A stretch of DNA of 64,000 nucleotides from Glandiceps talaboti (lineage: Eukaryota; Hemichordata; Enteropneusta; Spengelidae), in contig NC_135562.1 in NCBI RefSeq assembly GCF_964340395.1, forward strand, positions 22,741,173 through 22,805,172, written 5' to 3'. Under the pieces are notes generated by a model. It had not been told where the DNA came from. It was given only the letters and a program-made list of their open reading frames with translations, and searched no databases. The translations under genes and the position numbers were made by a program. The number at the start of each line of letters is the position of its first letter. Positions within the stretch are counted from its first letter, which is position 1. Below are positions 6,787-54,857 of the stretch, piece by piece.

Positions 6787-7578
6787 AACCCTGACGCACT
6801 TGACTGATGGTTAAAAGTTAAATTGGTGTTGCTTGATTCAACGAGAGCAGGACGATTTTGTAGAAATCCTTAAAAAAGGAGTATAGTAACCATGCCTCCA
6901 CCTATGGACACATTCTCATATGTATAACTGTGTGTACATGTAAGTTAAGACAATGGGACACAAGTGAAAATAGAAAGTTAAAAGGAGATAATGAGGGGTT
7001 ATTTAGAACAACAACTACAACTGTGATTAACTAGAAATATTTATTTATAAGATGAACGCCTGTATTGAAAATGTTACATGCTGAATGCAGGTACTTACTT
7101 GTAACCTGTACATGTCATATCATATAGTACAATAAATCCAATCAAATTAATTTTGGGGTCTGCACCCTTATGATTCTATTCTGTTAAGGTACTACATGTA
7201 CATTGTACTTATGGATAAAATCAGCCTCTAATTCAAATGTACAATGTCTAATTATTTGATAGGTTAACAATTTGTACATGTATTATTGACTGTAAAGTCC
7301 ACTTACAGCTATTGTACACTTTCACAATGGATCAACATCACTAATTTTTGGTTACTACAATACTAATTGACAGAATAACACGTCTTTACATTAAAAATAG
7401 GATATGCTATATTAATTAACTTGTATGCTTCTTGAAACAGATAATTTAATAATTCCTTTGGAGATTCCATATATTTTTGTATTTCAATGTTCAGTTTATG
7501 AAGTGGAAGTATATTTCTTCTGACATAGTGATACTTGTTTCTCTTATAACTAACTTTGACATGAAGGCTATCTCCCAT
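6787..7578. other. Noncoding stretch downstream of NAA38
   Basis: Unique AT-rich sequence. A 71-codon minus-strand frame at 7363-7578 begins MGDSLHVKV and is rich in K, Y and N. I recognise no family, and it directly abuts the 74-bp minisatellite. It could equally be noncoding, for instance part of a 3' region of the minus-strand NAA38 gene. Confidence 0.4.
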
Positions 7579-8096
7579 AGTCTGTAAGATAGACCATCAT
7601 GCCACGCTATCAGCTAGCACTCATAGTCTGTACTATTCTATGGGACTGTACTAGTCTGTAAGACAGACCATCATGTCACGCTATCAGCCAGCACTCAACG
7701 TCTGTACTATTCTATAGGACTGTACTAGTCTGTAAGATAGACAATCATGCCACGCTATCAGCCAGCACTCAACGTCTGTACTATTCTATAGGACTGTACT
7801 AGTCTGTAAGATAGACCATCATGCCACGCTATCAGCCAGCACTCATTGTCTGTACTATTCTATGGGACTGTACTAGTCTGTAAGATAGACCATCATGCCA
7901 CGCTATCAGCCAGCACTCATTGTCTGTACTATTCTATAGGACTGTACTAGTCTGTAAGATAGACCATCATGCCACGCTATCAGCTAGCACTCAACATCTG
8001 TACTATTCTATGGGACTGTACTAGTCTGTAAGATAGACCATCATGTCACGCTATCAGCCAGCATTCATAGTCTATACTATTCTATGGGACTGTGCC
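7579..8096. repeat. 74-bp minisatellite, 7 copies
   Basis: Tandem array with starts at 7579, 7653, 7727 and so on. Each unit begins AGTCTGTAAGATAGACCATC, continues ATGCCACGCTATCAGC and ends with TATTCTATGGGACTGTACT. Copies differ at only a few bases (CATAG/CAACG/CATTG before TCTGTACT; AGCT/AGCC). It lies 3' of NAA38. Confidence 0.95.
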
Positions 8097-8631: not shown

Positions 8632-8741
8632 TCACATCTCAGCCTGTCTTGGGCTATATAAATCCACCTCAATAGATACAATATGTGGTCCTGGCACCAT
8701 GGCAAGTCCGAGTACCCTTGGATCTTCTTTACATTCACTTT
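8632..8741 (-). CDS. NAA38: NAA38 coding exon 3 (C-terminus)
   Basis: Acceptor CTTTTCTTGTAG precedes the exon on the minus strand. The first two bases complete the codon split after exon 2. It encodes [18 protein letters not shown], then [18 protein letters not shown] and a TGA stop. The GLAMVPG..IVSIEV block is the Sm2-like half of the LSm fold and the family signature. Confidence 0.93.
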
Positions 8742-11700
8742 CTACAAGAAAAGTAGATTGCATTTGATTAAATAAAACTAAAAGTTGGTAGGTGATATCT
8801 TTCTCAAGGCTAACCACAAGGATCAGCCAGCATGTAATTGATTGATCGGTCATTTTATTGATTATTTGATTGATTGATTGATTGATTGACTGATTGACTG
8901 ATTGCATGATTAAGTTTTGTGGTGAATAGAACTTATTTTTTGTGTGATATATGTATTTATCAACTGACTGATTTTTATGGTGATGGAAATTTTTTTTTCC
9001 TTCTTTCCCTGGCTTGGTTTCTCTCTTTCAGCCGTATATAATTCTCTCTTCATTGACTAAATAAAGACATCTTGTCCATTCTTTTCTTCTTATCTAAATC
9101 AAAACACCCCTAATTACCAAGGTATCAGTTAAAGGAGGTTTATCTCTTAACTTCTGGGAGATTATCAAACCAAGCCATGTACAAACTACATGTAGTATCT
9201 CTTTCATAACTTTTACTATCGTACATGTACAAACCTGGTGGAATGACATACTCATACTATTGTACTAACCTGGTGGATTGACATACTCATACTATCGTAC
9301 AAACCTGGTGGAATGACATACTCATACTATTGTACTAACCTGGTGGAATGACATACTCATACTATTGTACTAACCTGGTGGATTGACATACTCATACTAT
9401 CGTACAAACCTGGTGGAATGACATATTCTTACTATCGTACTAACCTGGTGGATTGACATACCAGGGCTCGAAATTCGTTTTTTTTCTTGGTAGCCCAGTT
9501 GGGCTACCATCATTTAAATTTGGTAGCCCAAGAGCAGTGACTGGTAGCCCATATGCATACATTCCTAAATTAATGGTGTCTGTGTATATATGTAACTATA
9601 TGATGTATTGAATTTGATGATTGATTGAATAACTTGAGAGGTCACGTTAACGCTTTATGTGTGTGTATTTCACGCCATCTTTGACATTGGGGATGCAATT
9701 TTTTGCATGTATGTGTCCTCTGGGGACGTGTCATAAAGAGGGGACATATGAGGCTTACTGTTAGCAAACAATGTACGGTTATTATTGCAATGAATAGTAA
9801 GATATCTAGTCGGAGTTCTTACTTGTAACTATTAGCTAAATCTCTTGGTGCAGTGAGACCTGTAAAATCTGAATATGATTCAACGTATGGAAAACGTATA
9901 AACAGTTTCATAAGCCCCATGGCCATTTCCTGATGTGGAGACTACGTCTTGGGTAGTTTAGAAACTATGTGCTGTTATCATTATCTATCCACGTGATTGG
10001 TTACTTATTAACAGACGGGTTAGACAGGTTTTGTATCAATACATGACGGCCATTACGGCAAAGCCCCTTCCATTCATGGGCGAAGAGATAATCAAACAGA
10101 GTCTAAGACCACATCGGCAGACAGTCCATGCTGAAAACTTCACTCAGATAAATTCAAACCATCACGTCACCATTTCATTCTCACTAAAACTTCAACTACT
10201 AGATCAAATGCATTACTTGAATTTTACCATTCACCACTGCATGCTCTCTGTAGTTGCGTAAGCGTGGTTTACACACGGAATGTTTTAGGCATCGTTCAAG
10301 AATAAACGAATCTGTAGGACAGGTGTATACCAAGATAACAGTTCTCATCAGCAGCATAAGATTTTATCAAACACCATTACAACTGTGTCTCTGTCAAGTT
10401 GAAAGTTAAAGCTGTCATTCATGTGATGGAATTTAGTTACTGCAGTGCTGTACCGAGAGTGTACTGTACTCCGACTCTGAGAAGAGCCGAAATGGCCTGG
10501 GCCAGAGATCATATTTCCAGAGAGTGATTACCATGGAAAATTGAAAGTACAGAAAGATAACATTAAATTGCTATACAGAATATTGTTGCATATAAATGTT
10601 TTGTTGTGATATTTTAGAAGTACAAGCTGTGTATACGTTATACGGAAGAATGACGTGTCCAGTGTACAAGTATTTCGTGTACATTTGATATACATGTAGT
10701 GTGGATGCAAATTTGGAAAAGACGCACTGATTTTAACGCTAATTTTGGCGAGAACACGTCCCACAGGACTGCGACCTCGGAGGCCCCCGGCTAGGGAAGG
10801 CGTCGGAGTCAGGCTGTCACAGTTTCATTCAAAACATAGTAGCCCAACTGGGCTACCACTCACATAATTTGGTAGCCCAGAGACAAACATTGGTAGTCTG
10901 TGGACGTGGGACTACCGCGAATTTCGAGCCCTGCATACTCATACTATCGTACAAACCTGGTGGAATGACATACTCATACTATCGTACAAACCTGGTGGAT
11001 TGACATATTCTTACTATCGTACAAACCTGGTGAATTGACATATTCTTACTATCGTACTAACCTGGTGAATTGACATATTCATACTATCGTACAAACCTGG
11101 TGGATTGACATACTCATACTATCGTACAAACCTGGTGGAATGACATACTCATACTATCGTACAAACCTGGTGGATTGACATATTCTTACTATCATACAAA
11201 CCTGGTGGATTGACATACTCATACTATTGTACAAACCTGGTGGAATGACATACTCATACTATCGTACAAACCTGGTGGAATGACATATTCTTACTATCGT
11301 ACAAACCTGGTGAATTGACATATTCTTACTATCGTACTAACCTGGTGAATTGACATATTCATACTATCGTACAAACCTGGTGGATTGACATACTCATACT
11401 ATCGTACAAACCTGGTGGAATGACATACTCATACTATCATACAAACCTGGTGGATTGACATACTCATACTATCGTACTAACCTGGTGGATTGACATATTC
11501 ATACTATCGTACAAACCTGGTGGATTGACATACTCACACTATTGTACTAACCTGGTGAATTGACATACTCATACTATCGTACAAACCTGGTGGAATGACA
11601 TACTCATACTATCGTACAAACCTGGTGGATTTACATACTCATACTATTGTACTAACCTGGTGGATTGACATACTCATACTATCGTACAAACCTGGTGGAT

Positions 11701-14700
11701 TGACATACTCATACTATCGTACAAACCTGGTGGATTGACATACTCATACTATCGTACAAACCTGGTGGATTGACATATTCTTACTATTGTACTAACCTGG
11801 TGGAATGACATACTCATACTATTGTACAAACCTGGTGGATTGACATACTCATACTATCGTACAAACCTGGTGGATTGACATATTCTTACTATTGTACTAA
11901 CCTGGTGGAATGACATACTCATACTATTGTACTAACCTGGTGGAATGACATATTCTTACTATTGTACAAACCTGGTGGATTGACATACTCATACTATTGT
12001 ACTAACCTGGTGGATTGACATATTCTTACTATCGTACAAACCTGGTGGATTGACATACTCATACTATCATACAAACCTGGTGGATTGACATATTCTTACT
12101 ATCGTACTAACCTGCATGGTGGATTGACATATTCTTACTATTGTACTAACCTGGTGGATTGACATATTCTTACTATCGTACTAACCTGGTGAATTGACAT
12201 ATTCATACTATCGTACTAACCTGGTGGATTGACATATTCATACTATCGTACTAACCTGGTGGATTGACATATTCATACTATCGTACTAACCTGGTGGATT
12301 GACATACTCATACTATCGTACAAACCTGGTGGATTGACATATTCTTACTATTGTACTAACCTGGTGAATTGACATATTCTTACTATTGTACTAACCTGAT
12401 GGATTGACATACTCATACTATCGTACAAACCTGGTGGATTGACATATTCTTACTATTGTACTAACCTGATGGATTGACATACTCATACTATTGTACTAAC
12501 CTGGTGGATTGACATATTCTTACTATCGTACAAACCTGGTGGATTGACATACTCATACTATTGAACTAACCTGGTGGATTGACATATTCATACTATCGTA
12601 CAAACCTGGTGGATTGACATACTCATACTATTGTACAAACCTGGTGGACTGACATATTCTTACTATCGTACTAACCTGGTGAATTGACATACTCATACTA
12701 TTGTACAAACCTGGTGGACTGACATATTCTTACTATTGTACAAACCTGGTGGATTGACATACTCATACTATTGTACTAACCTGGTGGATTGACATACTCA
12801 TACTATTGTACTAACCTGGTGGATTGACATATTCATACTATCGTACAAACCTGGTGGATTGACATACTCATACTATTGTACAAACCTGGTGGACTGACAT
12901 TCTTACTATTGTACAAACCTGGTGGATTGACATATTCTTACTATTGTACTAACCTGGTGGATTGACATATTCTTACTATTGTACTAACCTGGTGGATTGA
13001 CATACTCATACTATTGTACAAACCTGGTGGATTGACAAACTCATACTATCATACTAACCTGGTGGACTGACATATTCTTACTATTGTACTAACCTGGTGG
13101 ATTGACATATTCATACTATTGTACTAACCTGGTGGATTGACATATTCATACTATTGTACTAACCTGGTGGATTGACATATTCTTACTATCGTACTAACCT
13201 GGTGGACTGACATACTCATACTATTGTACTAACCTGGTGGATTGACATACTCATACTATCGTACTAACCTGGTGGATTGACATATTCATACTATTGTACT
13301 AACCTGGTGGATTGACATATACTTACTATCGTACTAACCTGGTGGATTGACATACTCATACTATTGTACAAACCTGGTGAATTGACATATTCTTACTATC
13401 GTACTAACCTGGTGGATTGACATACTCATACTATTGTACCAACCTGGTGGAATGACATATTCTTACTATCGTACAAACCTGGTGGACTGACATACTCATA
13501 CTATTGTACAAACCTGGTGGAATGACATATTCTTACTATCGTACTAACCTGGTGGACTGACATACTCATACTATTGTACAAACCTGGTGGATTGACATAC
13601 TCACACTATTGTACTAACCTGGTGGATTGACACACTCATACTATCGTACAAACCTGGTGGAATGACATATTCTTACTATCGTACAAACCTGGTGAATTGA
13701 CATATTCTTACTATCGCACTAACCTGGTGGATTGACATATTCATACTATCGTACAAACCTGGTGGAATGACATATTCTTACTATCGTACAAACCTGGTGG
13801 AATGACATATTCTTACTATCGTACAAACCTGGTGGATTGACATATTCTTACTATCGTACAAACCTGGTGGATTGACATATTCTTACTATCGTACTAACCT
13901 GGTGGATTGACATATTGTTACTATCGTACTAACCTGGTGGATTGACATATTCTTACTATCGTACTAACCTGGTGGATTGACATATTCATACTATTGTACT
14001 AACCTGGTGGAATGACATACTCATACTATTGTACAAACCTGGTGGATTTACATACTCATACTATCGTACAAACCTGGTGGATTGACATATTCTTACTATC
14101 GTACTAACCTGGTGGATTGACATATACTTACTATCGTACAAACCTGGTGGATTGACATACTCATACTATTGTACAAACCTGGTGGATTGACATATTCTTA
14201 CTATCGTACAAACCTGGTGAATTGACATATACTTACTATCGTACTAACCTGGTGAATTGACATATTCTTACTATCGTACTAACCTGGTGGACTGACATAT
14301 TCTTACTATCGTACTAACCTGGTGGATTGACATATTCTTCACATGAACCAAGAATTACATTTCTATCTTTATCTGTACAAAGGAAAGTTCCTATAAGAGT
14401 TCGTCCATCTGTCATGCTAATTTTCATTCGTTTATTCAGCCAGCTTCTCAACATCTGTCTTCCTTCCGACTCTTCTCCTCCTTCATAAATTTGTTCCTAA
14501 ACAGAGGTCAGAGGTCAATTATTCCTTGTCAATTATTGCTGGTGTTAAGCTCATCTTTTTATCACAACACCTAGACTTATAACAATGCTTGAAATTAACT
14601 GTAATCCCATGCCCACTGTGCAGACTACCAATTCTCGTCATGGGACTACCATAATCTGCAGCTGATAGCCCACTCAGGCTACCACTGATTATGTGATGAA

Positions 14701-17700: not shown

Positions 17701-18273
17701 AATAAAATAAATTTTGATGGTCAATACCCCTGGAAAATGACCCCAAATCAAGTGTATCAACCCTGGCCCAGGCAGCCGGTCACAAATGAATCCTGCGCGA
17801 GCTTATGGGCTTTGCCTAGTTATGATATTAAACTAAATAGTATGTGGTAACATTTCAATTAAAAACAAATTACAATGAGGGGACACACTAGTAACAATCA
17901 CTATTTTGCAACTAAGTGACACGGTAAACAACTGGACTGAGTTCTTTCCGTTTAGTTCTTACTTTAAAGTTCCTAATACAAAGATGTATTACAATTTCGT
18001 TTTGGGTACCTGTGATTTCTAAGTGTTGGAACATGGTGATACCATGGTGATACAAAGTATGGTCAGGTTTTAACACTTGCGAAACAAACTGATATTCTGA
18101 CGTCAAATCTCTAAAGACTCTAAGTTCAGTCGTAACTGTGATTCCTTATAGGTACTAAAAGAAACTTTGTGATTGGGCATTTCATTTTCAAAAAAATGAC
18201 TAGAATATGAATATCAGAATATCAGAAATCCAAAAACGACAACATAACTTGAACTCACGCTCGTGTCTGCCAT
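8632..18273 (-). CDS. NAA38: NAA38 (LSMD1), NatC auxiliary subunit, 3 coding exons
   Basis: The encoded ~100-residue protein is an LSm-domain protein. NAA38 is a small auxiliary subunit of the cytosolic NatC N-terminal acetyltransferase (with catalytic NAA30 and scaffold NAA35), which acetylates Met-hydrophobic N-termini. Coding exons on the minus strand are 18273-18259 (15 nt), 14496-14319 (178 nt) and 8741-8632 (110 nt). Phases agree (0, then 1), giving 303 nt with the stop. Diagnostic segments are [20 protein letters not shown] and [20 protein letters not shown], both close to the vertebrate protein from family knowledge. The vertebrate N-terminal extension is much shorter here. The gene is head-to-head with CYB5D1. 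Intron 2 is about 5.6 kb and mostly a 35-bp minisatellite plus a transposon. Exons 2 and 3 are secure; the tiny first exon is inferred from ATG, phase and donor. Confidence 0.9.
8830..8910. repeat. GATT-rich microsatellite inside a dispersed repeat
   Basis: (GATT)n with interruptions, preceded by CAGCATGTAATTGATTGATC. The same head (GCGAGCATGTAATTGATTTA) precedes a similar GATT tract at about 63620-63720, so this is a fragment of the same dispersed repeat, here in NAA38 intron 2. Confidence 0.75.
9205..9461. repeat. 35-bp minisatellite, distal segment
   Basis: About seven copies of the 35-bp unit (plus strand CCTGGTGGATTGACATACTC, then ATACTATCGTACAAA). The array is split here by a 1.47-kb transposon; most of it lies at 10934-14336. 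Start at about 9205 is approximate because the first unit is degenerate. Confidence 0.95.
9462..10933 (+). mobile_element. hAT-like DNA transposon, nonautonomous, 1472 bp
   Basis: Termini are inverted: CAGGGCTCGAAATTCG at the left and CGAATTTCGAGCCCTG at the right. The sequence CATAC flanks both ends (9457-9461 and 10934-10938), a 5-bp target-site duplication inside the minisatellite unit. Subterminal regions repeat the word GGTAGCCCA. The interior holds a frame at 10031-10261 containing [18 protein letters not shown], reminiscent of a segment of hAT-type transposases, but too little remains to encode an enzyme. The same frame is preserved in the copy at 53404-54857. The CAGGG ends suit hAT elements; the class is inferred. 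Confidence 0.88.
10934..14336. repeat. 35-bp minisatellite derived from NAA38 splice donor, ~97 copies
   Basis: Tandem array, period 35 bp, running up to and into NAA38 exon 2. Read on the minus strand, each unit is AATATGTCAATCCACCAG followed by GTTAGTACGATAGTAAG. The first 18 bases equal the last 18 bases of exon 2, and the rest equals the start of intron 2. Every unit therefore carries a copy of the exon/donor junction. Donor variants are GTTAGT and GTTTGT (plus-strand ACTAAC and ACAAAC). The exon-proximal unit has GTTAGT at 14318-14313. One unit near 12110 has a 4-bp insertion. Confidence 0.96.
14319..14496 (-). CDS. NAA38: NAA38 coding exon 2 (LSm core)
   Basis: Acceptor CCTCTGTTTAG and donor CAG|GTTAGT flank a 178-nt exon in phase 0, leaving one base. 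It encodes [20 protein letters not shown], then [20 protein letters not shown] and [19 protein letters not shown]. The MTDGR..IG.FLCTD..RNVILG run is the Sm1 motif typical of the NAA38/LSMD1 family. The last six codons form part of the unit that has been amplified in the adjacent intron. Reading past the donor gives an immediate in-frame TAG. Confidence 0.94.
14586..14872. mobile_element. Short decayed hAT-like element, about 287 bp
   Basis: Ends TGCTTGAAATTAAC and GTTAATGTCAAGCCCTG are imperfect inverted repeats related to the CAGGGCTCGAAATT family, and GGTAGCCCA-like words recur inside. TATAACAA(T) occurs at both sides (14578-14586 and 14873-14881), consistent with an 8-bp duplication. Left terminal bases appear lost. 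Lies in NAA38 intron 1, 90 bp upstream of exon 2. Confidence 0.75.
14882..15480. other. NAA38 intron 1, unique sequence
   Basis: AT-rich intronic sequence without recognised feature. Confidence 0.5.
15480..16290. mobile_element. Long inverted-repeat (foldback) element in NAA38 intron 1
   Basis: Two diverged arms face each other. The left arm (about 15510-15735) includes CTTCATGCACAGTCACATGTG, GGACGGTGTTATTCT, AGAAAGTTAGGAAACTGAAG and GGGCATGCATTGGAGATACA. The right arm (about 16015-16270) carries the complements in reverse order. A spacer of about 280 bp separates them. There is no conserved ORF. The outer limits and any target duplication are unclear, so the coordinates are approximate. It looks like an old nonautonomous DNA element. 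Confidence 0.7.
16427..16851. mobile_element. TIR element, about 425 bp, with GCTGCAATAATTGTAGC ends
   Basis: Termini TAGCTGCAATAATTGTAGCG and CGCTACAATTATTGCAGCTA are perfect inverted repeats. The inverted match continues inward through TCTTGTTG.GGTTTTGTGGG. ATAGGAT occurs a few bases outside both ends and may mark a 7-bp target duplication if the element is slightly longer. No transposase ORF; nonautonomous. Lies in NAA38 intron 1. Confidence 0.82.
16852..18252. other. NAA38 intron 1, 5' part
   Basis: Unique sequence. At 17030-17160 is a direct repeat of TGACTA..ACGCATGCGC followed by ATATACTA, in a CpG-richer patch. No exon is supported. A short frame at 17912-18106 has no recognisable content. 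Confidence 0.45.
18259..18273 (-). CDS. NAA38: NAA38 coding exon 1 (inferred, MADTS)
   Basis: ATGGCAGACACGAGC followed directly by GTGAGT on the minus strand. The 15 nt are in phase 0, exactly what exon 2 requires, and the site lies 380 bp upstream of the CYB5D1 start on the opposite strand. The resulting N-terminus reads MADTS then EQIYEGG. It is chosen because it is the phase-compatible ATG with a good donor next to the shared promoter; a transcript would settle it. Confidence 0.65.
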
Positions 18274-18653: not shown

Positions 18654-18771
18654 ATGAGACCGAAGTATTACACTCCATCTGAGGTTGCTGTACACAACAC
18701 TCTGAAGGACTGTTGGGTATCATTTCTCGGGAAAGTATATGATTTAACACCGCTTTGTGAGAAATATCAAG
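18654..18771 (+). CDS. CYB5D1: CYB5D1 coding exon 1
   Basis: Begins [20 protein letters not shown] and ends in GAGAAATATCAAG|GTGAGT, one base into a Gly codon. The ATG is the first in frame, and the YF/YYTP.EVA start aligns with the family after the variable N-terminus. Confidence 0.94.
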
Positions 18772-21700
18772 GTGAGTCGAGTTGACTACACGCACTCCGA
18801 ATGAGTCCTTTAGTACAGTACTACTACTACTAGTACTAGTTCACGTTGTGCATTATAGTTGTCACTTGTACTCGTACACAGTAATGTTTGTATGATCGTG
18901 CGTGATACTTTCATGGCAGGAACTAGGGAGTCATACAGTGATGGGAAAAAAATTTGCTGCCATACCTACTCCCCCCTCCCCCAACATAAATCAAATGGTT
19001 CTCCTTAGATCAATAGATGCAATAATTGTAGCTTTGTTTTTATTTGCAATACCTTCTTATTCTGTGTTATATTTTATTTTGTGTGACAACATTTTTCATT
19101 TTACTTTTTATTTTCTTACCTGGTTGCAAAAGTAAACAATAAACTAACTGTGAATACACTTTATTAATATTAAATATAACTTTTTTCTATAGTTTATTAA
19201 TATTAAATATAACTTTTTTATAGTTTATTAATGATATGTGTGTGTTTGAATAGCTCTGGAAGACGTGTCAAACTTTGTAGCATATATACATCCAGAGCTA
19301 GTGTTTGAACACCACAAATACATCATGTAAGTTATATTATAAGCAGAGACATTATCTGGATTTGCTCAAAAGAGGAAAAGGTATCAATCCTCGTCACTGT
19401 GTCAAAATGTGAAATAAGGGCTAAGCCATTAACAAAAGGAGGTGTAGCAAAATTTAGATTAACTTTATCTCAGCAACGTTTCTTGTTCTTATACTTGGAA
19501 GTCTTGATTGTTTAAAGTTTTGTTATCATTATTGTTATCATTATTGTTATTTGTTATTGTTATCATCATTATTGTTATTTGTTATTGTTATCATTATTGT
19601 TATTTGTTATTGTTATCACTATTGTTATCATTATTGTTATCATTAATGTTATTTGTTATTGTTATCATTATTGTTATTTGTTATTGTTCATTATTTTGAT
19701 TTGTTATTGATATTTACTTTTGGGGTAGTAGTGGATGGTAATTTTAAAATCTATACCATTATTAGTTGTATTAGTACTATATTTGTACATCAGTATCATT
19801 TTAATAATTAGTTTTTTTTATTTTCCTAAATATAATATACATGTAAAGGGGATGTATCATGATTATGCAAATCAAGTGCACCCATGATTTGATAGGTGAG
19901 ATTTGTCACATGACTGATATTAAGGTCAGTGAGTGGCTGATTGTTTTCACAGGATACATGTATGTGCAAACTGGGATATGACACATTGCAATGCTTGATA
20001 CTTATCAGAAATCAGCGATTTTGTACTTTAATGAAACCTATTTTTTTAACTTTCCTACCAGGTGATGTGTTACTCAAACCAATTGTTGCTTCAGCTGGCA
20101 AAGACATTTCACATTGGTTTGATGCTAAGATTAAAGATGTAAGTTTTGTGTCTTATTCCTAATCTGTAGTATGGATACAAAGACTACTGTAACTTGACAT
20201 CCCTGACTGTCACCGTGTTGTTTATTCATTAGAGACTTCAAAACACCACATAGCCATTTTAGTATTTCAACTGTTTGCTTTCCTTTTGGTGAGCAACATG
20301 ATTACTTACATGTACATGTATGTGTGTCTACATCACAACTGTGTATGGCAACTGCATGATTGTTTATTTTACAGTTGAAGTTATCTGCTTGTGTGTCAGA
20401 AATGCAATGGCCCATAAGTTAAGCTTACTCCAATATCCCTGTATATATTTCAGATCCGTACACACATTGACCCAACAACAGGATGTAAAATAGCATACAC
20501 ACCAAATGGTAGATTCATTCACATTCCACCATCATGTCCTAGGACGGATTGGGCTAATGATTTTGGTAGACCTTGGTGGAAAGATGATGGCTTCTGTGTT
20601 GGTATACTATCAAGGAAAACAAGGTTTATCAAAGTCATCAACACATTAACATCACAGGAACAAGTTATTGAGGTTGGTCTACATTTGTGTTTGTTTATTG
20701 TGGAGGAACACAAGAGAAGCTCATCTGAGTTGACATAGTGTGACAGAGACCATTAAATTGTATGCAAATGAGGTGCAGAAACAGACTAATTTTTGTGTGA
20801 CTTTATTGGTAACCAAAATGTTACATTCTAATGACACTTTTTGTATCACATATGGACTCCTGGTTACTACCGTATTACTAGTCATAAACTCCTGGTTACT
20901 ACCGTATTACTAGTCATAAACTCCTGGTTACTACCGTATTACTAGTCATAAACACAATCAATGCTTTAGGCATTAAGATAATCTATGTATTATTAATAGT
21001 AAGAATATCAACCAAACAATAGTATCAATATCACCCGAACAATAGCATCAATATCACCCAAACAATAGTATCAATATCACCCAAACAATAGTATCAATAT
21101 CAACCAAACAATAGTATCTATATCAACCAAACAATAATAACAATATCACCCAAACAATAGTATCAATATCAACCAAACAATAGTATCAATATCACCCAAA
21201 CAATAGTATCAATATCAACCAAACAATAGTATCAATATCAACCAAACAATAGCATCAATATTAACCAAACAATAGTATCAATATCAACCAAACAATAATA
21301 ACAATATCACCAAAACAATAGTATCAATATTAACCAAACAATAGCATCAATATCACCCAAACAATAGTATCAATATCAACCAAACAATAGCATCAATATC
21401 AACCAAACAATAGTATCAATATTAACCAAACAATAGTATCAATATCACCCAAACAATAGTCTCAATATCAACCAAACAGTAGCATCAATATCAACCAAAC
21501 AATAGTATCAATATCAACCAAACAATAGTAACAATATCAACCAAACAATAGTATCAATATCAACCAAACAATAGTAACAATATCAACCAAACAATAGTAT
21601 CAATATCAACCAAACAATAGTAACAATATCAACCAAACAATAGTATCAATATCAACCAAACAATAGTATCAATATCAACCAAACAATAGTAACAATATCA

Positions 21701-24355
21701 ACCAAACAATAGTATCAATATCAACCAAACAATAGTATCAATATCAACCAAACAATAGTAACAATATCAACCAAACAATAGTATCAATATCAACCAAACA
21801 ATAGTATCAATATCAACCAAACAATAGTATCAATATCAACCAAACAATAGTAACAATATCAACCAAACAATAGTATCAATATCAACCAAACAATAGTATC
21901 AATATCAACCAAACAATAGTAACAATATCAACCAAACAATAGTATCAATATTAACCAAACAATAGTATCAATACATGTATCAACCAAACAATAGTATCAA
22001 TATCAACCAAACAATAGTAACAATATCAACCAAACAATAGTATCAATATCAACCAAACAATAGTATCAATATCAACCAAACAATAGCATCAATATCAACC
22101 AAACAATAGTATCAATATTAACCAAACAATAGCATCAATATCAACCAAACAATAGCATCAATATCAACCAAACAATAGCATCAATATCAACCAAACAATA
22201 GTATCAATATCAACCAAACAATAATATCAATATCAACCAAACAATAGCATCAATATCAACCAAACAATAATAACAATATCAACCAAACAATAGTATCAAT
22301 ATCAACCAAACAATAGCATCAATATCAACCAAACAATAGCATCAATATCAACCAAACAATAGCATCAATATCAACCAAACAATAGTATCAATATCAACCA
22401 AACAATAATATCAATATCAACCAAACAATAGTATCAATATCAACCAAACAATAGTATGAATATCAACCAAACAATAGTAACAATATCAACCAAACAATAG
22501 TAACAATATCAACCAAACAATAGTATCAATATCAACCAAACAATAATATCAATATCAACCAAACAATAGTAACAATATCAACCAAACAATAGTAACAATA
22601 TCAACCAAACAATAGTATCAATATCAACCAAACAATAATATCAATATCAACCAAACAATAGTAACAATATCAACCAAACAATAGTATCAATATCAACCAA
22701 ACAATAGTATCAATATCAACCAAACAATAATAACAATATCAACCAAACAATAGTATCAATATCACCCAAACAATAGTATCAATATCAACCAAACAATAGT
22801 AACAATATCAACCAAACAATAGTAACAATATCAACCAAACAATAATATCAATATCAACCAAACAATAGTAACAATATCAACCAAACAATAGTATCAATAT
22901 CAACCAAACAATAATATCAATATCAACCAAACAATAGTAACAATATCAACCAAACAATAGTATCAATATCAACCAAACAATAATATCAATATCAACCAAA
23001 CAATAATATCAATATCAACCAAACAATAGTAACAATATCAACCAAACAATAGTATCAATATCAACCAAAGAATAGTATCAATATCAACCAAACAATAATA
23101 ACAATATCAACCAAACAATAGTATCAATATTAACCAAACAATAGTATCAATATCAACCAAACAATAATATCAATATCAACCAAACAATAGCATCAATATC
23201 AACCAAACAATAACATCAATATCAACCAAACAATAGCATCAATATCAACCAAACAATAACATCAATATCAACCAAACAATAGCATCAATATCAACCAAAC
23301 AATAGTATCAATATCAACCAAACAATAGCATCAATATCAACCAAACAATAGTATCAATATCAACCAAACAATAGTATCAATATTAACCAAACAATAGCAT
23401 CAATATCAACCAAACAATAGCATCAATATCAACCAAACAATAGCATCAATATCAACCAAACAATAGTATCAATATCAACCAAACAATAGTATCAATATCA
23501 ACCAAACAATAGTATCAATATCAACCAAACAATAGTATCAATATCAACCAAACAATAGTATCAATATCAACCAAACAATAGTATCAATATCAACCAAACA
23601 ATAGCATCAATATCAACCAAACAATAGTATCAATATCAACCAAACAATAGTATCAATATTAACCAAACAATAACATCAATATTAACCAAACAATAGTATC
23701 AATATCAACCAAACAATAGTATCAATATTAACCAAACAATAGTATCAATATTAACCAAACAATAGTATCAATATCAACCAAACAATAGTAACAATACACA
23801 ATATAGAGACTCTGCTAGTGTAAAGTTGACTTTTAGTGTTGATAGTTTGATATTAGTCCCAAATACATTTCTTCTTCTCATTTATAGCAACTATAAAATT
23901 TCTTTCATTTAATAGCAAACCCGAAACATTTTTGTTCAGACAAGGAAAGTTCAATGGACCTAAGGGGCCTTGTTACTTTGAGTCAAAGAGGTCATGACAT
24001 AGACTGACCTGGGTATATATCCCATACTTTTAATTCAGATTTGTTTCATTTTGGCTTGTGTGTGATAATATTCTTTACTTATCAATGTTGTAAATTTCTT
24101 GCTCACATTGATTTGTTTTACCAGGTGTGTTCAGAAGAAATCATGTCAGAGATATTAGATCGGTATTTGAAGTATAATGCACATGCTGCAAGCTACACCT
24201 GGAAGTATGATGGCACTAACCTTGAAATGGACAAAACATTGGAACAAAACAGTGTTTTAGATGAAGACGAAGAATTCTACAAACTCAGTATGAACGATGA
24301 TGAATTCTTGCCTGCCATTCATTTGTATTTCAATGATGATCTAACAGAAGCATAA
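18654..24355 (+). CDS. CYB5D1: CYB5D1, cytochrome b5 domain-containing protein, 4 coding exons
   Basis: Exons 18654-18771, 20062-20138, 20454-20672 and 24125-24355 join in frame to about 214 residues; the vertebrate protein is ~228. Hallmarks are [19 protein letters not shown], then GKVYDLT (cytochrome b5-like start), [16 protein letters not shown], the [12 protein letters not shown] block, [20 protein letters not shown] and the C-terminus FNDDLTE. These closely follow the animal CYB5D1 family. The canonical HPGG heme-ligand motif of microsomal b5 is not present; this is also true of the family. CYB5D1 has been tied to motile cilia and axonemal radial spokes. Intron 3 carries a 24-bp minisatellite of ~2.8 kb. 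A polyadenylation signal AATAAA follows at 24722. Exon order, phases and splice sites all agree. Confidence 0.95.
19142..19230. repeat. Short tandem duplication in intron 1
   Basis: The words TTTATTAATATTAAATATAAC and TTTTTTATAG recur two to three times. Low-complexity intronic repeat. Confidence 0.7.
19254..19326 (+). other. Possible cassette (poison) exon in CYB5D1 intron 1
   Basis: A 73-nt segment bounded by TAG and a consensus GTAAGT. Read in the phase left by exon 1 it is open for 24 codons (starts [12 protein letters not shown]). Its length is not a multiple of three, so joining to exon 2 creates ATG-TGA at the junction. It may be a regulated premature-stop exon, an exon of an unseen isoform, or a chance pair of splice sites. 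Confidence 0.3.
19518..19715. repeat. TTATCATTATTG / TTATTTG low-complexity tract
   Basis: Degenerate tandem repeat of TTATTGTTATCA and TTATTTGTTATTG words. A 63-codon frame across it is an artefact of composition. Confidence 0.9.
20062..20138 (+). CDS. CYB5D1: CYB5D1 coding exon 2
   Basis: Acceptor TTTCCTACCAG and donor GAT|GTAAGT. Encodes [15 protein letters not shown] then [11 protein letters not shown], the central b5-like segment. The His of SHWFD is the most likely heme contact by position, an inference from the family. Confidence 0.95.
20454..20672 (+). CDS. CYB5D1: CYB5D1 coding exon 3
   Basis: 73 codons in phase 0 between ATATATTTCAG and GAG|GTTGGT. Contains [29 protein letters not shown] and [14 protein letters not shown], all family-conserved. 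The donor GTTGGT is weaker than those of exons 1 and 2 and precedes the array-bearing intron. Confidence 0.95.
20856..20950. repeat. 32-bp direct repeat, 3 copies
   Basis: ACTCCTGGTTACTACCGTAT followed by TACTAGTCATAA occurs three times in tandem. CYB5D1 intron 3. Confidence 0.92.
21004..23796. repeat. 24-bp minisatellite, ~116 copies, CYB5D1 intron 3
   Basis: Tandem 24-bp unit built on CAATATCAACCAAACAATAG plus TATC, varying chiefly at one triplet (TATC/TAAC/CATC) and at CAACC/CACCC/TAACC. Around 21540-21960 the variants recur every three units, giving a 72-bp higher-order period. The tract is strand-asymmetric: nearly free of G apart from the TAG of each unit. No coding role is seen. Confidence 0.97.
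24125..24355 (+). CDS. CYB5D1: CYB5D1 coding exon 4 (C-terminus)
   Basis: Acceptor GATTTGTTTTACCAG, phase 0. Encodes [40 protein letters not shown], an acidic EDEEF stretch and the terminal [12 protein letters not shown] before TAA. Very close to the conserved family C-terminus. Confidence 0.95.
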
Positions 24356-33849: not shown

Positions 33850-34493
33850 ATTCTTAGGGTGCCTAAGCATTCAAAATATGTTTGCAAATGTGCCTAGCAA
33901 CAAGACCACGCCCATAGCAACAGCCAAACGGTGAGGTATTTCACAAAGATAACAGGAATTGATAGACAAATGAATAAGCATTCAAAAAAATGTATGCAAA
34001 TATGCCTAGCAACAAGACCATGCCCATAGCAACAGCCTAATGACCAGATATATTGCAAAGATAACAACAGGGATTAATAGATAATTGAATGAACATTCCA
34101 AAAATGTATGTAAATTTGCCTAACAACAAGGCCACACCCATAGCAACAGCCAATCAGTGATGTATTTCACAAAGATAACCATGGGATGGATAGACAATTG
34201 AATAAACATTCATAAAATGCATGTTATTTGCCTAGCAACAAGACCACACCCATAGCAACAACCAAATAATCATGTATATTGCAAAGATAACAATAGGAAT
34301 TGATAATGAATAACCATTTCAAAAAATGTATGCAAATTTGGCTAGCAACATGACCACGCCCATACCAACAGCCAATGATCACATATTTTGCAAAGATAAC
34401 ACAGACACATTCAAAAAATGTATGCAAATGTGCCTAGCAACAAGACCACATGCATAGCAACAGCCAAGTGATCACATATATTGCAAAGATAAC
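33850..34493. repeat. ~100-110-bp tandem repeat, about 6 diverged copies
   Basis: Each unit has CATTCAAAAAATGTATGCAAA, then TGCCTAGCAACAAGACCAC, GCCCATAGCAACAGCCAA and TTGCAAAGATAACA. Units are diverged and vary in length. They lie in the continuation of the TTAGCACAAC-type repeat and are cut by a hAT-like insertion. Confidence 0.88.
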
Positions 34494-38321: not shown

Positions 38322-39153
38322 ATTTAACTTTACTTTAAATCTAGCAATTAGGTTTTCACTATTTGGAGTGGTTTGGTTCAGCTGTCCAGACCTTATCCAT
38401 ACTCAAAAGTTTTAGTGTTTGCTTCATTCCTGTGGCCCATGATTGTATTCCACTGGACTCCAGATTTTTACTCAGACAGTAAGCTTCCTTAGTTAGGGTA
38501 GTTTCTGCTTTCTGTGAGATCTTTAGCCAATATTTGAACATTAGTGTCAGGCAAGATACTAGTAGGGGGTTATAGTGACCTAGTTCCATAAGGCAATCTG
38601 TATTGGATGCTTTACAGTTTACATTTAGTAGGAATTTGCAGAACTTTATGACGTGTAGGTTTTCAATGGGAGTTGAAAATTTCATTAGGTTTTGAGACTG
38701 GTTATGTTTTCATGTGACCAAACCTCTCTAGAGTATAGCAGAATGGGCTTCACCAGTGCATAATTTGATGGGGATAGTTGTTTCTGAAAACAGGTCTTGT
38801 TTTAGTTCAAACAGTGCCTTCAGTGCTCTATATCTTAGGTCATCTTGTGTAGTTTCCCTGAAGTGCTCAGTTTTATTCCAAGGTAATTATAGGAGGGAAC
38901 ACAGTCTAGTACTTGATGATTGTTTCTGTAAAATATAAATTTCTATAAACGTTCCTGACATTGAAAATCATGATCTTTGATTTGGCAATATTTATCATAC
39001 ATGACATGTAGGTGCCATTCTTTCACAGAAGATTTCAACTGTGTTGAGGGCATTTTGTAGACCAGTATTTGATTCCAACAGTAACATTAAATCGTCAGCA
39101 TATAGTAAGCAAGATAGCCTGCTAGTTAAAAGAGTTGGTGGGTCATTGTTAGT

Positions 39154-39545
39154 CTCCGCCGGACGAAGTCTGGATGGGGACTTATGGATTAGGTTCTGTC
39201 TGTCCGTCCGTCCGCAGCCGTTTCTTGGAGATGTCTGGACCGATTTTTTTCAAACTTGGTACAGGGGAAACATACAATGGCATACATATGCACGTCAATT
39301 TGTTTTATGATGCGATCCAATATGGCCGCCTAGCAGCCATTTTGTTTGCGAATTTTCCCTGTCCAAAGCCATAACTCAGACATGCTTGAACAGATCTCAT
39401 TCAAAATTGGTATTAGCACAGTGTTCTATGACATACATGTGCATATCCATTTTCGTCATGACACAATCCGATATGGCTGCCTGGCAGCCATTTTGTTGGT
39501 GCAGTTTTCATGTCCAAAGCCATAACTCAGACATGCTTGAACAGA
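39154..39545. mobile_element. 392-bp insertion in the LINE, 6-bp target duplication
   Basis: GTTAGT lies on both sides (39148-39153 and 39546-39551). Contents: CTCCGCCGGACGAAGTCTGG at the left, a (GTCC)n tract, and two diverged copies of a ~150-bp module (GATATGGC.GCCT.GCAGCC, GTCCAAAGCCATAACTCAGA, CATGCTTGAACAGA). No ORF. Dispersed nonautonomous element of unknown class. Confidence 0.78.
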
Positions 39546-53403: not shown

Positions 53404-54857
53404 CAGGGCTCGAAATTCGCGGTAGCCCCGCGTCCACAGACTACCAATGTCTGTCTCTGGGCTACCAAATTATGTGAGTGGTAGCCCAATTGGGCTACTA
53501 AGTTTTGAATGAAACTGTGACACCCTGACTCCGACACCTTCCCGGGCCGGGGGCCTCCGAGGTCGCAGTCCTGTGGGACGTGTTCTCGCCAAAATTAGCG
53601 TCAAAATCAGTGCGTCTTTCCAAATTTGCATCCACACTACATGTATATCAAATGTACACGAAATACATGTACACTGTACACGTCATTCTTCCGTTCATCG
53701 TATACACAGCTTGTACTTCCAAAATGTCACAACAAAACATTTATATGCAACAATATTCTGTATAGCGATTTAATGTTATCTTTCTGTACTTTCAATTTCC
53801 CATGGTTATCACTCTCTGGAAATCTGCTCTCCGGCCCGGGCCCTTCCGGTTCTTCTCGGAGTCGGGGTACAGTACACTCTCGGTACAGCACTGCTGCAGT
53901 AACTAAATTCCATAACATGAATGACAGCTTTAACTTTCAACTTGACAGAGACACAGTTGTAATGGTGTTTGATAAAAGTTTATGCTGATGAGAACTGTTA
54001 ACTTGGTATACACCTACAGATTCGTTTATTCTTGAACGATGCCTAAAACATTCCGTGTGTAAACCACGCTCACGCAACCCCTGAGAGCATGCAGTGGTGA
54101 ATGGTAAATTCACGTAATGTATTCGATCTAGTAGTTACAGTAGCAAAGCTCAAAAGAAAGTTGAAGTTTTAGTGAGAATGAAATGGTGACATGATGATTT
54201 GAATTTATCTTAGTGAAGTTTTCAGCATGGACCGTCTGCTGATGTGGTCTTAGACTCTGTTTGATTATCTCTTTGCCCATGAATGGAAGGGGCTTTGCCG
54301 TAATGGCCGTCATGTATTAATACAAATCCTGTCTAACCCGTCTGTTAATAAGTAACCAATCACGTGAATAGATAATGATAACAGCTAGTTTCTAAACTAC
54401 CCAAGACGTAGTCTCCACATCAGGAAATTGCCATGGGGCTTATGAAACTGTTTATACGTTTTCCATACGTTGAATCATATTCAAATTTTACAGGTCTCAC
54501 TGCACCAAGAGATTTAGATAATAGTTACAACTACGAATTGCGACTACATGTTTTTTCTTCATTGCAATGATAACCGTACGTTGTAAATGACACGGCCCCA
54601 GAGACACATACATGCAAAAAATTGTGTCCCCAATGTCAAATATGGCATGAAATACACACAAATAACGTGTTAACGTGACTCTTAAGTTATTCAAACAATC
54701 ATCGAAATCAATACATCATATAGTTACATATATACACAGACACCATTAATTTAGGAATGCATGCATATGGGCTACCAGTCATTGCTCTCAGGCTACCAAA
54801 TTTAAAAGATGGTAGCCCACCCGGGCTACCAAGAAAAAAAACGAATTTCGAGCCCTG
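53404..54857 (-). mobile_element. hAT-like transposon, 1454 bp, inserted in block A
   Basis: Second copy of the 9462-10933 element, in the opposite orientation. Ends CAGGGCTCGAAATTCG and CGAATTTCGAGCCCTG; 5-bp duplication TATCC (53399-53403 and 54858-54862). Blocks B and C have the empty site (CACATCCTATCCTGGATGC at 57112 and 59204). Keeps the frame [18 protein letters not shown] at 54128-54313 (minus). Confidence 0.92.

Follow-up and report, generated by a model that had tools for sequence, protein, structure and literature searches.

Intron 2 of NAA38 in the window (the whole stretch of 64,000 nucleotides of DNA that was analysed) opens with a 35-bp tandem array, which takes up much of the intron and whose every unit repeats the motif of the intron's own 5' splice site. 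This splice-donor minisatellite is real and confirmed. It is, very probably, a 'mirage' of the kind known from lancelets, grown from a duplicated segment across the exon 2 donor, in which the exon-attached donor is used and the decoys are tolerated. The spliceosome's choice among near-identical donors has mostly been studied with small engineered constructs; this single intron offers about 100 donors, and the true site is locally almost indistinguishable from the decoys. In what follows we establish the anatomy of the array, the identity of its unit with the junction, the consequences for the reading frame, and the presence of similar arrays where other exons of the genome end.

NAA38 is a three-exon LSM gene on the minus strand of the window. 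The 100-aa product of its joined exons matches human NAA38 (PDB 7mx2_C, E=6e-28), in an alignment that covers residues 11-92 and so spans the exon 2/exon 3 junction, and it also matches the Pfam LSM family (E=1.3e-11). Exon 2 closes in phase 1, and intron 2, whose first base is 14318, is 5,577 nt long. The features of the gene and of the array are as follows.

18259..18273, minus strand: NAA38 exon 1, coding part (MADTS)
14319..14496, minus strand: NAA38 exon 2; the exonic portion of the array unit corresponds to its final 21 nt (14319-14339)
14317..14318, minus strand: GT of the authentic 5' splice site of intron 2 (CAG|GTTAGT)
10934..14337, minus strand: main block of the 35-bp array, in which the authentic site is one of 97 CAG|GTT donors
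9462..10933, no strand assigned: DNA transposon splitting the array, 1,472 bp, with 16-bp perfect TIRs and the 5-bp target duplication GTATG
9226..9461, minus strand: distal block of the 35-bp array, 7 donors (9234-9444)
8632..8741, minus strand: NAA38 exon 3, coding part up to the stop codon, its end calculated from a coding length of 303 nt

A cytochrome b5-like gene on the plus strand (first exon matching Pfam Cyt-b5, E=6.1e-8) is divergent from NAA38. The two start codons stand head to head, at 18654 (plus) and 18273 (minus), with about 380 bp between them, and human CYB5D1 and NAA38 are head-to-head neighbours likewise.

Read along the minus strand, the array starts inside exon 2. Its unit consists of the last 21 nt of that exon followed by the first 14 nt of intron 2; the exon tail and the corresponding part of unit 1 are alike over these 21 nt with one mismatch, and the exact junction string from -18 to +17 is present three times, the authentic site among them. 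Tandem Repeats Finder describes the main block (10934-14337) by a period of 35, 97.2 copies and 91% matches. Across both blocks there are 104 CAG|GTT sites, that is, the real donor and 103 decoys, and the hexamer is GTTAGT at 50 of them (the authentic site counted in), GTTTGT at 53 and GTTGGT at one. The 103 intervals from donor to donor measure 35 nt in 100 cases and 33, 39 and 1,512 nt in the remaining three, the longest containing the transposon; thus, the motif is kept in every unit. The final unit (9234) has degenerated, and unique intron lies beyond it. By comparison, the remainder of the window has 2.1 donor-like 9-mers (at least 7 of 9 consensus positions) per kb and strand, a density from which 3.4 kb should hold about 7.

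The initial annotation had derived a unit of about 100 copies and 35 bp from the exon 2 donor junction, and that derivation stands, although the proposed split into 18 exonic and 17 intronic bases gives way to one of 21 and 14. It had placed the limit of the array at 10934, whereas the array resumes past the transposon, at 9226-9461, with 7 further donors; and the GTTAGT or GTTTGT donor that it assigned to every unit is found at 103 of the 104 sites, the odd one being GTTGGT. The constancy of CAG|GTT is weak ground for reading selection, since 21 of the 35 unit columns are invariant anyway (100 full-length units).

Several further repeats occur in the window. The array at 20995-23796, behind the cytochrome b5-like exons, has a 23-bp unit in about 122 copies, a strong strand skew and a consensus without a donor. 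A 34-bp array of 44 copies at 1-1506 is cut by the window start; its consensus likewise has no donor, and no exon was seen at its edge. Downstream of NAA38 exon 3, at 7578-8093, there is a 74-bp array of 7 copies whose minus-strand unit has the acceptor-like TCTATCTTACAG. A second copy of the transposon, broken into two pieces (91% and 92% identical), occupies 53404-54856, and a weak RVT_1 match on the minus strand at 38998-39249 (Pfam, 4.9e-4, below the cut-off) is probably a retroelement remnant.

The exon side of the unit codes for protein and its alignment with human NAA38 continues across the junction; for this reason we take the exon copy as ancestral. The units match the exon tail almost equally well from one end of the array to the other, and for blocks of ten units the figure lies between 18.9 and 20.1 of 21. 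The lag identities of the units fall inside the range obtained from shuffled unit orders, and so we claim no higher-order period. A dimer of the unit, 70 nt long, was compared with the 590-Mb genome (590,416,875 bases, 47 contigs); it gave at least 47 matches, and 47 of 47 lie inside the NAA38 array. On the matches listed, a dispersed mobile unit, like an introner, is rejected. In the history that we favour, a short segment across the exon 2 donor (21 exonic and 14 intronic nt) would have been duplicated in tandem, and the copies would then have multiplied into the intron through slippage or unequal exchange. Coding constraint would have held the exon copy, with slight variation arising among the intronic copies, and the DNA transposon would have inserted into the array at a later time.

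What would such a row of donors do to the transcript? The frame into exon 3 requires the first donor. When the decoys are joined to exon 3, all 103 lead to the same TAG, after residue 65, because the first junction reads GTTAGT. The immediate TAG that the annotation had predicted for a GTTAGT junction is thus borne out in a stronger form, as the stop is shared by 103 of 103 decoys. This stop lies more than 50 nt upstream of the exon 2/3 junction for 102 of the 103 decoys, and 30 nt upstream for the nearest one. The truncation would be expected to cost the product the latter half of its LSM fold, the part encoded by exon 3.

The predicted pairing with the 5' end of U1 is similar for the two common hexamers (-9.6 kcal/mol for GTTAGT and -8.9 for GTTTGT, with -14.0 for the consensus), and so strength is no mark of the true site. 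Nor are the decoys masked by RNA structure, a candidate that we rule out because a 361-nt stretch taking in roughly the first nine units is predicted to fold less well than each of 100 shuffled versions. The true site would appear to be marked by its place beside the exon and hardly by its local sequence, and from this we infer that the exon-proximal, or first, donor wins. The donor of the real exon would most likely be chosen by exon definition, the decoys being tolerated on that account, and slips to decoys would yield a single truncated product of 65 residues, most of which would be expected to be degraded. Among the references of PMC8724738 there are studies of how surplus U1 is taken off alternative sites.

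It could instead be supposed that the decoys are truly used, so that some transcripts end after residue 65 and are degraded, and the length of the array sets the level of NAA38 protein. The near-identity of the decoys to the real site, the stop common to all of them and a weak RNA structure that leaves them unhidden are what such a scheme would need; lancelet mirages, however, are reported to leave regular splicing intact, and we consider regulated decoy use unlikely. A second proposal is that an over-extended exon is trimmed by a further splice that joins the real donor to the AG closing the last unit, in a kind of ratchet or self-repair. Each unit starts with GT and ends with AG, and so splicing from unit to unit would leave the sequence unchanged; moreover, CAG|GTT stands at every unit border, and any AG-GT pair of units rebuilds the same donor. 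Against this, the polypyrimidine tract is absent before the AG (TATGTCAATCCACCAG), and a single unit of 35 nt falls short of the smallest animal introns known, such that the splice would have to span at least two units. Such trimming strikes us as extremely unlikely, and we retain the mirage, with its first donor used, as the preferred reading.

We also asked how tandem donors are distributed over the genome. The word AGGTRAGT occurring three times with gaps of 20-50 gave 2,481+2,196 matches, versus 2,875+2,111 for its reversed control. In our own reading, the reversed word looks like a tetranucleotide repeat, and we therefore added a permuted control word, which gave 248+345 matches when tripled, its own reversal giving 547+627. 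For CAGGTAAG, tripled with gaps of 51-81, there were 902+938 matches versus 283+143 for the reversed word; single sites number 20,772 versus 14,089, and thus the tandem excess is 2.9-fold per site. Among the first 100 sites listed for each word, arrays of three or more numbered four for CAGGTAAG (24 sites) and zero for its reversal (Fisher p=0.037 for the sites listed, with 4/79 entered and 80 independent places counted). The acceptor word TTTTCAG, tripled, showed no excess, with 685+606 matches versus 1,002+863 reversed, in counts not normalised to single-word counts. Since matches overlap, all array numbers are rough. The first 100 listed matches to tripled AGGTRAGT form 7 arrays, all within the first 5.05 Mb of a 35.9-Mb contig (C1), a start region that may not be typical, and the first 100 listed permuted-word matches form 11 arrays on contigs C1 to C8. 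By extrapolation, there would be hundreds of donor arrays in the genome. The excess of donors without an excess of acceptors is measured against imperfect controls.

These counts bear on a plainer account, according to which an ordinary intronic minisatellite has overlapped a donor by chance, and other words form arrays at least as often as donors do. The window does hold several large arrays (for example at 1-1506, 7578-8093, 20995-23796 and 33864-34401), and tripled AGGTRAGT did not beat its reversed form. Nevertheless, the exon tail is itself part of the unit, the permuted word is far rarer in tandem, and CAGGTAAG is in excess per site as given above. We judge a chance overlap very unlikely, and proceed with an array descended from the donor junction.

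To see where other donor arrays lie, we inspected by eye the first donor of 18 arrays, comprising all distinct arrays among the listed AGGTRAGT and CAGGTAAG matches together with two more from the single-site listing, a check confined to arrays of donor words. For 11 of the 18 (L043, L045, L056, L061, L062, L064, L069, L070, L077, L078 and L080), an open frame after an apparent acceptor reaches the first donor, so that the array has an apparent coding exon end. The other seven (L027, L028, L034, L044, L046, L063 and L079) have no convincing exon. Database matches support the exon in five of the 11:

L078: Aquarius, 2.9e-12
L064: FHIT, 9e-11
L062: PHYH, 1.1e-9
L070: galaxin repeat, 1.1e-8
L043: PKD-type channel, 1.7e-4, just below the family cut-off, with PDB hits only at 0.037

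The exon at L077 matches DEAD at 0.048 only, that at L056 matches weak models only, below their cut-offs, and a database family search with the exons at L045, L061 and L069 gave no match. Between 5 and 78 nt of the unit come from the exon, depending on the array. Read by eye, some unit borders coincide with short shared sequences, such as AAGC in PHYH and CCTGYCAAT in L061, and these fit slippage or microhomology. Aquarius, encoded by the host gene at L078, is an intron-binding spliceosomal protein.

A broader proposal is possible, though we hold it tentatively and with some doubt: a DNA- or transcription-linked process would give birth to minisatellites preferentially at 5', not 3', splice junctions, and hundreds or more introns would open with rows of decoys, tolerated as the exon-attached donor wins. 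If this is true, the choice of the exon-proximal donor amounts to a genome-wide natural experiment. Other genes of the genome carry arrays of other periods, and the RNA of one animal could relate donor choice to copy number, distance and sequence. Should gene models bear out the donor-only excess, it would likewise inform the origin of minisatellites and of new introns.

The host would appear not to be a chordate. COX1 recurs each 15,435 bp on one contig (C40), which is a concatenated mitochondrial genome of 53% GC. When CYTB is aligned by eye with its best PDB chain, ATA falls on Met in 0 of 12 cases (7 Ile, 3 Val, 1 Thr, 1 Tyr) and the aligned ATG codons on Met in 4 of 4; the four ATA codons of COX1 align with one Met, two Ile and one Val. 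In a survey that took in the mitochondrial genes without ATP6 and ATP8, AAA is missing from COX1, COX2, COX3, ND1, ND2, ND3, ND4L and ND4, as bounded, and from the trimmed CYTB; there are two in ND5, two in ND6 and one upstream of CYTB, some of them perhaps outside true genes. ARAGORN assigns CTT as the anticodon of tRNA-Lys; its other Lys call (TTT), within ND5, is probably spurious. According to Table 3 of PMC3121625, Balanoglossus has AUA=Ile, AAA unused and tRNA-Lys CUU, chordates have AUA=Met, and echinoderms AAA=Asn. Mitochondrial AUA=Ile speaks against a chordate and fits an acorn worm; on this ground a lancelet origin is rejected, and the host is best read as an enteropneust hemichordate. 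A search for GFP as a lancelet marker had no hit, nor did its controls, and it carries no weight either way. CYTB on this contig (L012, L013) appears between ATP6 and COX3, versus the ND5-COB order given for hemichordates.

The uniqueness that had been implied for the NAA38 array does not survive comparison, as mirages are known in lancelets, related cases in human, and other arrays in the same genome. Recursive, or ratchet, splice sites juxtapose AG|GT and have a polypyrimidine tract. The NAA38 unit borders share the juxtaposed AG|GT but have no such tract before the AG (AGAATATGTCAATCCACCAG and the like), and about 100 of them stand in a row. Introners, like further mobile elements that create introns, are repeated sequences with splice sites found within introns; unlike these, which occupy many loci, the NAA38 unit dimer is confined to one (47/47 matches listed). 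The excerpted accounts of earthworm metallothionein intron minisatellites mention no repeated exon boundaries, and among the titles and abstracts listed we found no such exon-boundary donor arrays reported for hemichordates.

Primate-specific human paralogs contain internal tandem repeats at exon-intron boundaries, linked to novel introns (PMC2812944). These resemble the NAA38 array in their minisatellite-size units (about 30 bp), their position at exon-intron boundaries and their cryptic splice sites; unlike it, they average about 4 repeats, are tied to novel introns and, in the extract of that paper, are not given as long donor arrays. The closest parallel is offered by the lancelet mirages, minisatellites across exon-intron boundaries in Adh3, the globins BflGb6 and BflGb9, troponin C and PGBD5, in which, according to the reports, many of the repeats carry AG/GT and splicing seems to be normal (PMC3087553, PMC3902484). 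We recognise a mirage by a boundary-spanning unit, AG/GT signals, undisturbed splicing, length instability, and concerted evolution that leaves out the boundary units. As in the lancelet mirages, the NAA38 unit spans the boundary of its host exon and intron (21 exonic and 14 intronic nt), and its repeats bear AG/GT splice signals, with CAG|GTT at 104 of 104 sites. It differs from them in having 104 donors, versus 3-6 units in the globin case, in keeping the donor in every unit, and in a host that is apparently no chordate. The class of exon-boundary repeats is thus already known, and what is added here is the size of the array, an apparently non-chordate host, and evidence of similar arrays at other exon ends.
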